DNA of 34,699 nucleotides from positions 1 to 34,699 of the forward strand of contig JANXBS010000028.1 in NCBI GenBank assembly GCA_025060615.1, in the 5' to 3' direction. The DNA comes from Anaerolineae bacterium. GTDB lineage: Bacteria > Chloroflexota > Anaerolineae > DUEN01. Under the pieces are notes generated by a model. The model had not been told where the DNA came from. It did no database searches and saw only the letters and a list, made by a program, of their open reading frames with translations. The position numbers and the translations under genes are program-made. This document shows positions 714 to 5,379 of the stretch, in pieces. Every line of letters begins with the position of its first letter. The first letter of the stretch is position 1.

Positions 714-742
714 TTGTCAAGCTACGGAAATATCGCTATAAT
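714..742 (+). promoter_or_regulatory. Strong sigma-70-type promoter for the MalT/BTAD regulator
   Basis: A TTGTCA box (714-719) and a perfect TATAAT box (737-742) are separated by exactly 17 bases. Transcription would start near 749, giving a leader of about 87 bases before the ATG at 836. A short dyad, TGTAG-N5-CTACA (747-761), sits on the predicted start site and could be an operator. Confidence 0.82.
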
Positions 743-787
743 GAACTGTAGCAGGTCTACACCGGTTGGCTTACGACTGTTCCTCAT

Positions 788-819
788 CCCGCAGGATTTG
801 AGCGCTCAACCCCTGCGGG
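788..819 (+). promoter_or_regulatory. Leader hairpin overlapping the regulator's ribosome binding site
   Basis: Two nested inverted repeats share one centre (803.5): an outer arm cccgcagg (788-795 with 812-819) and an inner perfect palindrome ttgagcgctcaa (798-809), separated by a 2x2 internal loop. The right arm contains the first three bases of the only Shine-Dalgarno-like stretch (GGGAGG, 817-822) before the ATG at 836. No T-run follows, so this is unlikely to be a terminator. It may mask the ribosome site or be a DNA operator; both are inference. Confidence 0.55.
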
Positions 820-835
820 AGGTTAGCTCAATCAG

Positions 836-3800
836 ATGACTGCGGATCCCGCTAAGAAGGAGTCCACGATCGTGGTATCAACGCCTCTCATCCTGACCAA
901 GGTGCTCTTACCCAGGCTACGATCCGACTTGCTGCGTCGCCCCCGCTTGGTGAACTTCATTCACGCTCATATCGAACGTAAGCTCATCTTGATCTCTGCC
1001 TCCGCCGGTTATGGAAAGACGGCTTTGCTAGTGGATTACGCCCACGATACAGACCTTCCTGTCTGCTGGTATAGCCTTGATTCATCGGATAATGATCCCC
1101 GTCTTTTCCTGGAGTATCTAATCGCCAGCATCCGTCAGCGATTTCATGATTTCGGACAGCGTACCTTGACTATGTTGCGCGAGAGCGCCGGTGCCAATTT
1201 GGAGCTGGCGGTCAATACGTTAATCAACGAAATTCAGGAGCAGATCCGAGATTACTTCGTAATCATTCTAGATGACTATCAGGAGGTGGAAGACAATCCC
1301 CAGGTAAATGCGATCGTAGATCGGATGTTGCAGTACTTGCCCGAGCACTGCCACATCATCCTATCTACGCGTACTTTGCCTCTTCGCCTTTCGCTAACTA
1401 CGTTGACTGCTAAGCAGCAGGCCGCTGGGCTCGGCGTGAACGATCTGCGCTTTACCCCTGCTGAGATCCAGGCGTTGGCACGGCAGAATTACCAAATCAC
1501 ACTAACCGATGAAGAGGCTGCTGAGCTAGCCGCCCATAGCGAAGGCTGGATCACAGGGATCCTGCTCACCACTCACACTATGTGGCAGGGGCTGGTGCAG
1601 TCTTGGGTCCGCGTGCAGGGGACCGGCAGCCAGGTGTTCGAGTATCTGGCCGACGAGGTGTTCCACCATCAGCCTCAAGACATCCAAGACTTTCTGCTCG
1701 CTACGGCTATCCTCCGCGAGCTGACGCCGCCGTTGTGCGATGCCCTGCTAGGGACTACCAACAGTTGGGGCATGCTCAACATGCTGGAATCGCGTAACCT
1801 GTTCATCAGTCGCTTGGAAGGGCCAGGCACCTGGTTCCGCTATCATCCGCTTTTTCGCGAGTTCCTCGTCCAGAAGCTGCGTGCCGAATCACCGGAACGA
1901 TACAGGGCACTCCATCAACGAGCAGGATATCTGGCTCGAGCCGACGGTCGCTGGGATGCTGCTATCTATCACTTGAACGAAGCAGGGGAGCCCGAGCAGG
2001 TGGCAGAGACCATCGAGCAGGTGGCCGCCAGTGTCTACAATCGAGGGCAGTGGCGCACATTGACGCGTTGGATGGATCTGCTGCCTTCATCCGTTCAAGA
2101 TCGGCATCCGATGCTCAAACTCTGGCGTGCCAAGATCTACCTTGAAATGGAGGACCTGGACCAAGCCCTGCGCCTGCTGGACGAGGCGTGTCAGCAATTC
2201 GCGGCGGCCGGCGATTCCGGCCACCTGGCCACGGCACTGGTGGAGCGCGGGAATGTGCGCAGCTTGATGGGGGATCACCTAGGCGCAATTGCGGACTGTG
2301 AGACCGTCCTAAAGATGAGCGAAAAGGTCGACGCGGCTACTGTGGCCGTTGCGCACCGGGTGATCGGCATAAGCTACATGCGGCGTGGTGAGTTTAAAGC
2401 CGCGGCTCAGGAGCTAGAGGAGTCGCTGCGCTTATCGCGTGAGATGCGCTATCGCGAGAATGAAGGATGCCTGTATCACAACCTGGGTACCACTTATGAG
2501 CTGATCGGCGATATCGAGCGGTCCACCAGCTATTTCCAACAGGCGCTTCAATACTATGAGGCCGTAGATCGACCGTGGGCTTTGGCCAATACATTGAATA
2601 GCATTGGGGTCAGTTACTATTACCGGGGGGAGTATGAAGAAGCTCAAAAGGCCTTGGAAAAGGCCCTGGCCAAGGCGCGCGAGGCCGGCTATACCCGCAT
2701 CGAGGCGTATGCGCTGGCTAGCCTGGGCGATTTGTACCGAGACTTGGGACGTCTCGATGAGGCAACGCAGGCTTACAAAGATGGGCTGGAGATCGCCCAA
2801 CAAGTCAACGAATCTTTCATCAAGGTATACATCTTGACGGCTCTGGGCGATGTGTATCGTATGCAGGGGAAACGACAACGGGCTCAGGATCTACTGCGAC
2901 AAGCGCTGTTTCTAGCCACTCATCACGATTCCGGATATGAGATCGGGCTCTGCAAGCTCAGCTTGGGTACTCTGCATACGGATTTGGGCGACATCTCCAA
3001 AGCCCACCAGTATCTAGAGGAGGCACGCGAGCTGTTCAATCAGGCCGGCGCACAACGGGAATGGGCTCGGGCAGAACTGCAGATCGCTTACCTACACTTC
3101 ATCTGCCAGGAGATGCAGTTGGCGATGTCGTCTCTGGCACGCGTCTTAGAGACGGCTAATCGCATCCACTGCGATCAATTCATGCTCACCGATGGTGTCC
3201 GGTTGCTGCCGTTGTACCGATACGCCATCCGGCGACGGATCGGACTCACCCGCCTGTGCAAGATCCGTGATCGTATCCAGTCGCTGCAGCAAGGGCGATC
3301 TGTAGGGGCTCCCCACGTTCTGGAAGCACCCGAACCCCGTGAGTTGCACTTACAAGTTTTCGCCCTGGGTCCATCACGAGTCTTTAAAGATGGACGGCTA
3401 TTGGAGCGTTCCGATTGGGGCTCTGCAGTGACTAAGGAGCTCTTCTTTTTCCTGCTCGAACAGCGTCAACCACTGCGCAAAGAGCAGATCATAGACGTTT
3501 TCTGGCCTGAGGTAAGCGAGGAGCGCGCCAACAGCAATTTTCACTCGACTACTTATCGTCTTCGTCGGGCACTTGCCCAGGACGCGCTCCTGTACGAAGA
3601 TGGGGTATACCGGCTGAATCCCGATCTCGAGATCTGGTATGACGTTGAGATCTTCCAAGAGCTGATTGCTCAGGCTCATCAAGAGGAGGCATCAGAACGG
3701 CGGGAACACTTTTTGGAAGAAGCCATTCGGCTTTACCACGGGGACTTCATGGGCGAGTGTTACTCCGATTGGTGTATCCCGCGCCGGGAGTCGCTAAGAG

Positions 3801-4075
3801 AGTCGTACATCGAAGCCTTATTAGAGTTGGGTCGCTTGCGCATTCTAAAAGGCGATCCTGATGGAACGCATGAGCTGTGCGAGGCGGCCTTAAGGTTAGA
3901 TAACTTTCGAGAAGATGCTTACGTCCTCCTGATGCAAGCTTGCGCTTTGAGGGGGGACCGTGGGGGGATTGTCCGTTGGTACCGGCGTTGCCAAGAAGCG
4001 CTTGCCAGCGAACTCAACGCGTGCCCCCTGCCGGAGACCACCCAGCTTTATCAGAGGTTGATCAAACAACTCTGA
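836..4075 (+). CDS. MalT-like ATP-dependent transcriptional activator with C-terminal winged-helix/BTAD domain
   Basis: This is a large STAND-type regulator. It has a Walker A motif (SASAGYGKT, about residues 54-62), a Walker B motif (FVIILDDYQ, about 141-149) and a MalT-like nucleotide-binding region. A long series of TPR-like helical repeats (about 400-770) follows, with recurring pairs such as ALANTLNSIGVSYYYRGEYE. The C-terminus (about 836-1079) carries an OmpR-type winged helix and a bacterial transcriptional activator domain (BTAD) in place of the LuxR helix-turn-helix of classical MalT. Family knowledge: such proteins sense a ligand through the repeats and activate promoters when ATP-bound. 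The start has a GGGAGG 13 bases upstream, partly inside a leader hairpin. Likely targets are the small genes immediately downstream (inference). Confidence 0.92.
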   Translation: MTADPAKKESTIVVSTPLILTKVLLPRLRSDLLRRPRLVNFIHAHIERKLILISASAGYGKTALLVDYAHDTDLPVCWYSLDSSDNDPRLFLEYLIASIRQRFHDFGQRTLTMLRESAGANLELAVNTLINEIQEQIRDYFVIILDDYQEVEDNPQVNAIVDRMLQYLPEHCHIILSTRTLPLRLSLTTLTAKQQAAGLGVNDLRFTPAEIQALARQNYQITLTDEEAAELAAHSEGWITGILLTTHTMWQGLVQSWVRVQGTGSQVFEYLADEVFHHQPQDIQDFLLATAILRELTPPLCDALLGTTNSWGMLNMLESRNLFISRLEGPGTWFRYHPLFREFLVQKLRAESPERYRALHQRAGYLARADGRWDAAIYHLNEAGEPEQVAETIEQVAASVYNRGQWRTLTRWMDLLPSSVQDRHPMLKLWRAKIYLEMEDLDQALRLLDEACQQFAAAGDSGHLATALVERGNVRSLMGDHLGAIADCETVLKMSEKVDAATVAVAHRVIGISYMRRGEFKAAAQELEESLRLSREMRYRENEGCLYHNLGTTYELIGDIERSTSYFQQALQYYEAVDRPWALANTLNSIGVSYYYRGEYEEAQKALEKALAKAREAGYTRIEAYALASLGDLYRDLGRLDEATQAYKDGLEIAQQVNESFIKVYILTALGDVYRMQGKRQRAQDLLRQALFLATHHDSGYEIGLCKLSLGTLHTDLGDISKAHQYLEEARELFNQAGAQREWARAELQIAYLHFICQEMQLAMSSLARVLETANRIHCDQFMLTDGVRLLPLYRYAIRRRIGLTRLCKIRDRIQSLQQGRSVGAPHVLEAPEPRELHLQVFALGPSRVFKDGRLLERSDWGSAVTKELFFFLLEQRQPLRKEQIIDVFWPEVSEERANSNFHSTTYRLRRALAQDALLYEDGVYRLNPDLEIWYDVEIFQELIAQAHQEEASERREHFLEEAIRLYHGDFMGECYSDWCIPRRESLRESYIEALLELGRLRILKGDPDGTHELCEAALRLDNFREDAYVLLMQACALRGDRGGIVRWYRRCQEALASELNACPLPETTQLYQRLIKQL

Positions 4076-4111
4076 ATTGTAGAAAAGTTGGCAACCTCCT
4101 AAAAACCCGTC

Positions 4112-4140
4112 AGTGTTTTGTGAGTATGGCCGTGTATAAT
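4112..4140 (+). promoter_or_regulatory. Candidate activator-dependent promoter for the small-peptide gene
   Basis: A perfect TATAAT (4135-4140) lies 42 bases before the Shine-Dalgarno of the 32-codon ORF. At 16-18 bases spacing there is no recognisable -35 box (best hexamers agtgtt/gtgttt). A good -10 without a -35 is typical of promoters that need an activator. A small dyad GTTG-G-CAAC (4087-4095) lies upstream. Confidence 0.45.
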
Positions 4141-4194
4141 GGGAATAACCTTTCAGAATTCATACCCTTGGAATCCTGGGTAGGAGGTGGCCTG

Positions 4195-4293
4195 ATGAAA
4201 AGCGTGTATTGGAAAGTGGCGTGGGTGCTCATTATCCTTCTTTCCCTGGCTGTGGCCAGTGGGGCGCCGTCGTCCGTTTGCGCAAGCTGTTAA
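4195..4293 (+). CDS. Short secreted-peptide candidate (32 aa, Cys-pair C-terminus)
   Basis: I do not recognise this gene. The ATG at 4195 sits 5 bases after a perfect AGGAGGTG (4182-4189), the best ribosome site in this part of the window, and a TATAAT box lies upstream. The product has a classic signal-peptide layout: lysines at 2 and 7, a hydrophobic core (about residues 8-22, VAWVLIILLSLAVA) and a small-residue stretch (ASGA) suited to signal-peptidase cleavage. Only a short tail ending VCASC remains. Cleavage would leave roughly eight residues with a Cys-x-x-Cys. A hairpin follows 52 bases after the stop. It lies directly behind a MalT/BTAD activator, so a secreted signal or a small membrane peptide is plausible, but that is inference. 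Confidence 0.6.
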   Translation: MKSVYWKVAWVLIILLSLAVASGAPSSVCASC

Positions 4294-4345
4294 CTATAGA
4301 CCTGCGGTCCGAACTCATTCCATACCCCTGTAGAGGTGTAGGTAA

Positions 4346-4368
4346 GGGGCTGGCCATAGGCCAGCCCC
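4346..4368 (+). terminator. Perfect 10-bp hairpin between the peptide and DUF5317 genes
   Basis: The arm ggggctggcc (4346-4355) and its exact complement (4359-4368) enclose a 3-base loop (ata). The following bases (atcgctttagag) are only weakly T-rich, so this may be an attenuating terminator or an mRNA-stabilising stem that uncouples peptide expression from the downstream genes. Confidence 0.5.
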
Positions 4369-4411
4369 ATCGCTTTAGAGATAGCATCTTTCCGGCTCGT
4401 TCGAGGTAGGG

Positions 4412-5059
4412 ATGATCTTGCTGATTGCAGTGATTGCGGCTTTTTTCATCAGCATTTTGGTCGGCGGCCATCCAAGCCGGCTGGCACATGTGCGTATACG
4501 ATGGGCTTGGTTGGCGCCGTTCGCTTTCGCAATCCAATTCCCCTCGATCTTTTGGCCAGAGTCAAACGCTGAGGGGCTTTTCAGCGCTCGAGCGCTCGCC
4601 ATGGTCCTCTCATATGGGTTGCTCATCTTGTTCCTGTGGCTCAATCGCCGCTTGTTTGGCGCCCGGCTGATCGCAATGGGGCTCATCCTGAATTGGCTAG
4701 TGATGATTGCCAACGGTGGTTACATGCCCATTACCTACCAGGCATTACAAAAAAGTGGGCAGGCTCACCTGGCTCTCGGAAGCGAGCTCGGTTCACGGGT
4801 GCGCAACAGCAAGAATGTGTTGTTGCCTTTGTCGGAAACTAGGCTGTGGTGGCTTTCTGACATTTTCGTGATCCCCCGTCCAGCGCCAATGAGGGCCGTG
4901 TTCAGCTTCGGGGACATGATGATCGCCATCGGAGCCTTTCGGTTTCTTTACAAACATATGCGGCAATCACCAGCTTCTCTATCAAAGCTACATTCTTGCA
5001 GGAGGGAAGAATATGTCGTGGGAAACTTTTCAGGCCATAGTAGGCACCGCGTTGATTGA
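4412..5059 (+). CDS. DUF5317 family membrane protein
   Basis: A 215-aa multi-pass membrane protein of unknown function that resembles the DUF5317 family common in Chloroflexota and Actinomycetota. Hydrophobic segments lie at about residues 1-20, 32-50, 63-80 and 88-100, followed by a conserved-looking GGYMPI motif, a soluble middle (about 110-150) and a final segment near 168-185. A GAGG lies just upstream of the ATG. The last 47 bases overlap the next gene, whose Shine-Dalgarno is inside this ORF, so translation is probably coupled. The final 30 or so residues are polar and may simply be read-through into the overlap. The family's function is not known. Confidence 0.82.
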   Translation: MILLIAVIAAFFISILVGGHPSRLAHVRIRWAWLAPFAFAIQFPSIFWPESNAEGLFSARALAMVLSYGLLILFLWLNRRLFGARLIAMGLILNWLVMIANGGYMPITYQALQKSGQAHLALGSELGSRVRNSKNVLLPLSETRLWWLSDIFVIPRPAPMRAVFSFGDMMIAIGAFRFLYKHMRQSPASLSKLHSCRREEYVVGNFSGHSRHRVD

Positions 5060-5288
5060 CCGTGAGTTCGCCCAATTGCTATTGCATCAGACACCTCAAG
5101 CTTTGCGCCGCTTTAACCTCTCTGACGATGAATATCGGACTGTCTCGGCCATCCGTGCCACTTCATTGGAGCAATTCGCTGGACAATTGGATCAGTTGGC
5201 CTCGGCCCAGGAGCATGAAGCAGAGCTTCGGCTGCATTTAGGAACGCCGAAATGGGAGTGCGGCTGCCGTGTAGTGGTCGATAGCTGA
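5013..5288 (+). CDS. Small NHLP-clan-like protein (Os1348-type) with C-terminal Cys-Gly-Cys
   Basis: A 91-aa protein preceded by AGGAGGG (5000-5006) six bases from the ATG. Its helical body (FQAIVGTALIDREFAQLLL ... LRRFNLSDDEYRTVSAI) matches the pattern of nitrile-hydratase-leader-like (NHLP) clan proteins, as in the Os1348-type group of Chloroflexota. This is recognition by pattern, not by search. NHLP-clan leaders often precede modified peptide cores. Here the C-terminal tail (GTPKWECGCRVVVDS, cysteines 83 and 85) is short and there is no Gly-Gly site. No RiPP-modifying enzyme is in the window, so a precursor role is unproven. It overlaps the DUF5317 gene and ends before a strong terminator. 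Confidence 0.75.
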   Translation: MSWETFQAIVGTALIDREFAQLLLHQTPQALRRFNLSDDEYRTVSAIRATSLEQFAGQLDQLASAQEHEAELRLHLGTPKWECGCRVVVDS

Positions 5289-5340
5289 CAGAAGGGAGTC
5301 AGGTGCTGAACCAGCCTGGATGAGCTGCCCATTCCAATAC

Positions 5341-5379
5341 GACACCAGCGGTAGGATCAGCCTACCGCTGGTGTCTTTT
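5341..5379 (+). terminator. Strong rho-independent terminator closing the regulator-peptide locus
   Basis: A perfect 15-bp stem (gacaccagcggtagg, 5341-5355, with 5361-5375) with a 5-base loop is followed by TTTTA. It lies 53 bases after the NHLP-like gene and separates it from the convergent glycosyltransferase. Confidence 0.92.

Follow-up and report, generated by a model that had tools for sequence, protein, structure and literature searches.

The regulator, peptide and membrane-protein locus

We analysed a window of 34,699 nucleotides, i.e. one entire contig (G000:C28) of the 3.86 Mb genome of an Anaerolineae bacterium, with respect to a group of four genes close to its start. The genes all lie on the + strand and are flanked on both sides by terminators. 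They encode a large regulator (REG), a 32-residue open reading frame (ORF), a DUF5317 membrane protein and a 91-residue Os1348-like protein. Upstream, an intrinsic terminator (610-645; 16-pair stem, loop of 4, T tract) closes an FtsH-like gene; downstream, a second one (5341-5375; 15-pair stem, T tract) closes what we will call the peptide operon. REG (836-4075, 1079 residues) is preceded by a putative sigma-70-type promoter of its own, TTGTCA-17-TATAAT at 714-742, which was assigned by consensus match only (11 of 12 positions). A first-pass annotation of the same DNA had named these ORFs, protein types, terminators and promoter, and every one of them was found where it had been placed.

The N-terminal and tetratricopeptide repeat (TPR) regions of REG matched the profiles PRK04841 (2.1e-86, below the cut-off of that profile) and PF17874 (6.7e-24) as well as the MalT structure 8bob (E = 5.4e-39). 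The C terminus matched BTAD (PF03704, E = 5e-17), and the AfsR structures 8jke, 8k60 and 8hvr align to residues 836-1077 (3341-4066), so that the SARP domain of AfsR is matched by the last 240 residues of REG; the recognition helix of this predicted DNA-binding and activation region is NSNFHSTTYRLRRAL. In other words, REG has the STAND NTPase and TPR array of the MalT/LAL activators, with a score under the MalT equivalog cut-off, together with the OmpR-type winged helix-turn-helix (HTH) and BTAD of the SARP proteins. No C-terminal LuxR-type HTH was found among the 25 families listed for REG; BTAD stands there instead. The layout of RRNPP receptors, an N-terminal HTH followed by TPRs, was not found either, the NTPase of REG being N-terminal and its DNA-binding domain C-terminal. 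The TPR region does match NprR and Rap structures, but this similarity is of the generic TPR kind. RRNPP receptors also control an adjacent gene for a short secreted pro-peptide; at this locus a short-peptide gene with a predicted operator lies beside the regulator, and its product may or may not be secreted and active.

The conservation of the module was surveyed in 80 DUF5317 loci from named genomes. REG lies directly upstream in 56 of them; the peptide gene is present in 55 of these 56, and the Os1348-like gene in 52 of the 55 loci that could be assessed. The single REG locus without a peptide (L094, judged by eye) has kept the repeat GTCAGTGTTTTGTCAGTA, and its peptide was apparently lost or fused. 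A different picture is seen in the 15 loci that lack REG and have enough sequence, where an Os1348 gene occurs once and an HD-GYP gene 12 times. In Bacillota and Bipolaricaulota the peptide gene comes first, followed by MASE9-HD-GYP and then DUF5317; the peptide there ends in xxKW plus one residue. Many Anaerolineaceae operons have a PAS-GAF-HD-GYP gene after Os1348. No transporter, exporter, importer, peptidase, protease or modification enzyme is conserved in the neighbourhood of the module. The first-pass annotation had proposed a self-contained circuit and had made the proposal depend on the conservation of the small ORF and the gene order in relatives; both are conserved in many families, and a matching predicted REG site precedes the peptide gene.

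The peptide family and its predicted operator

The peptide gene (4195-4293; product MKSVYWKVAWVLIILLSLAVASGAPSSVCASC) follows a Shine-Dalgarno sequence, AGGAGG, at 4182-4187. A small ORF with a strong Shine-Dalgarno sequence is almost always found in the REG-DUF5317 (or REG-Os1348) gap of distant relatives. An iterated profile was run on 12,666 small ORFs taken from 80 loci plus two; it recovered 74 members with E below 1e-3, the next match being at E = 1.3. Searches seeded with the peptide instead of DUF5317 led to identical neighbourhoods. The 105 distinct sequences gathered are 26-57 residues long and share a basic N terminus (100 of 105), a hydrophobic stretch, a GAP motif (86 of 105) or a near variant of it, and a tail with a median of 9 residues, one third of which are glycine. 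The variation is concentrated in the tail and the end of the helix is conserved. Tandem in-frame duplicates of the gene also occur.

The proportion of nonsynonymous differences (pN) was below that of synonymous differences (pS) in all of 117 related pairs of peptide genes, with Ka/Ks mostly at 0.02-0.3. As pN is below pS in every pair and the family profile stands above chance, the small ORF is a real coding gene, and a chance ORF is ruled out. The product is, by prediction, a peptide with one transmembrane helix, a GAP exit and a short, mostly glycine-rich tail, under purifying selection. The family appears to be undescribed.

The closely spaced cysteines that had been pointed out at the ends of both small products are present in the window and are not general. 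The CxxC of the peptide tail is confined to the window's own family of three members (CASC, CNPC and CGSC), and tail cysteines occur in just 8 of the 105 sequences, which rules them out as a general feature. Not even the two nearest relatives of the Os1348-like protein share its ECGC end. As a separate observation, peptides of 26-44 residues with one helix lie beside HD-GYP/DUF5317 genes at nine loci of Bacillota, Bipolaricaulota and others, most of them with a conserved KW near the C terminus.

An element that the first-pass annotation did not list is a predicted REG-type operator and promoter at 4109-4140, GTCAGTG-4-GTGAGTA-8-TATAAT. SARP proteins such as AfsR bind direct repeats at a spacing of 11 (or 22) bp, the 3' repeat lying 8 bp before the -10 box and the site overlapping the -35 region (PMC10936776). 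The element fits this layout exactly, its repeats being 11 bp apart and the second of them ending 8 bp upstream of the -10 box. The pattern has a single match in the window and none in 100 shuffles, and this is the sole perfect match in the genome. Direct repeats also precede the peptide genes of most relatives, at a period of 12 (z = 16.4) or 11 (z = 7.9, both against dinucleotide shuffles, with most neighbouring lags near background), and they end at a near-constant distance before the -10 box. The period of 12 bp in other lineages departs from the 11/22-bp rule.

The sequence of the repeat changes with the recognition helix of REG. An FKN helix is paired with GAAGCC x2 at 23 of 25 loci, an FHST helix with GTGAG x2 in 10 of 10, and an FHV helix with GTAAGC x2 in 4 of 6; these three classes, which were counted by eye from the locus list, show no crossover. 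GAAGCC x2 plus the -10 pattern occurs at about 70 sites in 150 genomes of one family, with none for the reversed control, and the majority of REG-type sites precede the peptide operon. A relative whose REG orthologue is on a different contig still has the repeat before its peptide gene. Bacillota-type peptide genes without REG have no such repeat, as judged by eye. Given the exact SARP-type site and a repeat that changes in step with the recognition helix, it is very probable that REG activates the peptide operon.

Some REG-type sites lie before other genes. A direct-repeat promoter of this type is found shortly before giant secreted SpvB/RHS-repeat proteins in four Anaerolineaceae genomes, and a fifth case falls just under our cut-offs; we regard this link, which is drawn from the positions of the sites, as a lead. 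Further genes behind such sites encode HU-like proteins, a LuxR-type HTH protein and a response regulator. Other observations include a family of small proteins starting MAKVKNN or MAKVRNN behind REG-type sites (two loci), orthologous 191-residue membrane proteins behind a site with 1 mismatch in three genomes, and an RpoN-like (sigma-54) gene that starts 149 bp after a perfect site of the GTGAG type (L327, G008:C57:6784; by eye). A 1-mismatch site on another contig of the window's own genome (G000:C31) was rejected as a further target, as it has neither a convincing gene nor conservation.

DUF5317 and the Os1348-like protein

The DUF5317 gene (4412-5059) matched PF17248 at E = 7e-38 (130.4 bits against a cut-off of 25). 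Its AlphaFold2 model is confident (pLDDT 92.4), and no clear match to a VanZ-like or other known fold was found in the PDB, Foldseek giving none at E<=0.001 and a second structural comparison at most Z 4.5. A full-text literature search returned no paper on DUF5317. Elsewhere the domain is the N-terminal part of PAS-GAF-GAF-GGDEF proteins (L104:1557-4322, L109:1277-4057 and L146:370-3183), and its partner genes include HD-GYP and MASE9-HD-GYP. Since DUF5317 is fused to PAS-GAF-GGDEF and adjoins HD-GYP genes that are accompanied by a KW-tailed peptide, it appears to be a membrane input domain acting together with the peptide. The same fusions and neighbours make a sensor or input role likelier than the export or maturation role that had been proposed for it. 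A conserved pair of aspartates, D150 and the S-x-G-D168 motif, recalls the GxGD proteases; here, too, the GGDEF fusion favours a sensor over an aspartyl intramembrane protease. The reading frame in the window runs about 25 residues beyond the usual end (4984-5059) and overlaps the start of the Os1348-like gene by 47 bp. The relatives stop before this overlap, and the extension in the window may reflect a lost stop or a sequencing error.

The Os1348-like gene (5013-5288) encodes a helical protein of 91 residues that belongs to the Os1348 family of the NHLP clan, if narrowly, with 40.2 bits for NF038399 against a curated cut-off of 40. Its relatives stop directly after the helical domain, and the alignment contains no conserved core peptide or tail of the kind expected of an NHLP-type precursor. 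The top Foldseek match of its AlphaFold2 model, 6lk7, is weak and non-significant.

DUF5317 is not found in all genomes that carry the rest of the module. Where REG and the peptide occur with DUF5317 nowhere in the genome (five genomes), the peptides end in GMP, ADP, ASP or other forms; where DUF5317 is encoded elsewhere in the genome (four genomes), they retain GAP or SAP. This suggests that the GAP motif tracks the presence of DUF5317, and it is no more than suggestive since about three independent lineages are involved. A DUF5317-free variant of the operon was seen at three loci, in which a peptide ending in ASPETGGGTGR or similar is found with an Os1348-like gene and a protein of about 500 residues with a PAS-like start.

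Models of the module

The gene module itself, the protein-coding status of the small ORF and the control of its operon by REG are strongly supported by these comparisons. A peptide-sensing or peptide-producing circuit, as the first-pass annotation had suggested, is plausible. The explanation that we consider the most probable for the whole is a regulatory module of two units, in which REG would be made from its own promoter and combine an NTPase switch, a TPR sensor and a C-terminal SARP effector. Active REG would bind the two 11-bp-spaced direct repeats at 4109-4140 and activate the peptide-DUF5317-Os1348 operon. The peptide would insert as a single helix with its N terminus inside and its C terminus outside, exposing the short tail after GAP; DUF5317 would be a multi-helix membrane input domain and the partner of the peptide, and Os1348 a small cytoplasmic helical adaptor. 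Peptide and DUF5317 would report the state of the membrane or of the population, to REG in this operon and to HD-GYP/GGDEF enzymes elsewhere, and the membrane pair or the state of the peptide would feed back on the TPRs of REG. The Anaerolineaceae may use the same type of regulator to control giant secreted SpvB/RHS proteins as well. We infer the topology, the partnership of peptide and DUF5317, the sensor role, the feedback to REG, a signal function of the peptide and the way in which REG would sense it.

Several observations weigh against this explanation. About 12 loci have no recognisable repeat, and the helix classes coincide with clades, so that descent may account for part of the covariation. 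One genome (G003) has retained a REG orthologue (59%) with neither peptide nor DUF5317. REG, peptide and Os1348 occur in some genomes without any DUF5317, which therefore cannot be essential to the circuit. A clear KW-type peptide is near only one of the three DUF5317-GGDEF fusions, two of which lie on short contigs. The search of the window's own genome turned up no second convincing target, and none of the SpvB/RHS type.

The strongest of the other readings, to which we give somewhat less than an even chance, is a narrow form of the same explanation: the peptide would remain whole within the membrane and modulate DUF5317, serving as its subunit or brake, and would not be a diffusible signal. 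MgrB and SafA, which have a single transmembrane helix and a short outer tail and are coupled to a membrane sensor, are the known proteins of this kind. The predicted features of the peptide are the same; there is no sequence relation, and the sensor would be DUF5317 instead of a histidine kinase. The reading agrees with the joint presence of peptide and DUF5317 in both the REG and the HD-GYP contexts, with the GAP motif that tracks DUF5317, and with the use of DUF5317 as an input domain in fusions. It agrees less well with the genomes that keep a peptide without DUF5317, though the motif is altered in these.

It is rather unlikely, in our view, that the tail is an autoinducing pheromone of the RRNPP/SHP type which, once cut off and released, would be taken up again and bind to the TPRs, with REG activating its own peptide gene in a positive feedback. 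As in Rgg/SHP and other RRNPP systems of Bacillota, a repeat-domain regulator adjoins, and is predicted to activate, a short hydrophobic peptide gene; the variable tail behind a conserved helix end, the tandem gene copies and the generic TPR similarity to NprR and Rap would also be in keeping with a pheromone. Unlike these receptors, however, REG has a STAND NTPase and no N-terminal HTH, and the peptide family also occurs with HD-GYP/DUF5317 where REG is absent. The proline comes directly after small residues, a position that normally blocks signal peptidase I. Moreover, the tail is glycine-rich and low in information, and the neighbourhood has no conserved protease, exporter or importer. A membrane partner is favoured over a diffusible pheromone for three of these reasons: the occurrence of the peptide with DUF5317 but without REG, the proline after small residues, and the lack of a conserved transport or protease gene.

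A ribosomally synthesized and post-translationally modified peptide (RiPP), with the Os1348-like protein as an NHLP leader or the peptide as a bacteriocin precursor, is improbable. The NF038399 match at the cut-off and the terminal cysteines in the window's family would fit, as would the one study of Os1348, from Pseudomonas sp. Os17, which links it to antibiotic activity (PMC7726476). That protein (6lk7) shares the NCBIfam domain and is the non-significant top match mentioned above, but the operon here is different and has no acetyltransferase or modification cluster and no efflux genes. As there is no conserved core peptide after the helical domain, and given that ECGC is not conserved and modification and export genes are not conserved nearby, it is unlikely that the Os1348-like protein serves as a RiPP precursor. 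That the small ORF is an untranslated leader of the DUF5317 mRNA, as its shortness and position might suggest, we regard as refuted for practical purposes by its codon pattern of purifying selection, to which AGGAGG, the in-frame tandem duplicates and the family-wide motif can be added.

Among known systems, the preferred two-unit module can be compared with AfsR-afsS of Streptomyces, where afsS adjoins afsR and encodes a small protein. AfsR and REG both consist of a STAND NTPase, TPRs and a SARP effector, and the operator in the window has the same repeat spacing, distance to the -10 and overlap with the -35 region. In REG, however, the domain order is reversed, the SARP part being C-terminal, the target is a transmembrane peptide with DUF5317 and Os1348 rather than AfsS, the repeats of several lineages have a period of 12 bp, and no antibiotic cluster was seen. 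We class REG and its operator with the AfsR-afsS kind, as a variant whose domains come in reverse order and whose product differs. MalT and the LAL activators share the N-terminal NTPase and TPR region (8bob) and differ in having a LuxR-type HTH where REG has BTAD/SARP. Full-text literature searches turned up no peptide signalling system in Chloroflexota.

The module offers an undescribed peptide family and the hypothesis that DUF5317 is a peptide-linked membrane input domain, which in the fusion proteins would be a new N-terminal input domain of diguanylate cyclases. It also supplies a readable code between recognition helix and operator DNA, by which regulons can be derived from sequence. 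The module can be tested in a cultured carrier, Bellilinea caldifistulae GOMI-1 (L097). A broader and more tentative idea is that of a widespread, undescribed form of peptide signalling: one-helix peptides would act via DUF5317 as a new kind of receptor, and the output would be swapped between cyclic di-GMP enzymes in Bacillota and Bipolaricaulota and STAND-TPR-SARP factors in Chloroflexota, with SpvB/RHS proteins turned on in Anaerolineaceae. The RHS link, if true, would tie the circuit to the large secreted proteins of the Anaerolineaceae.

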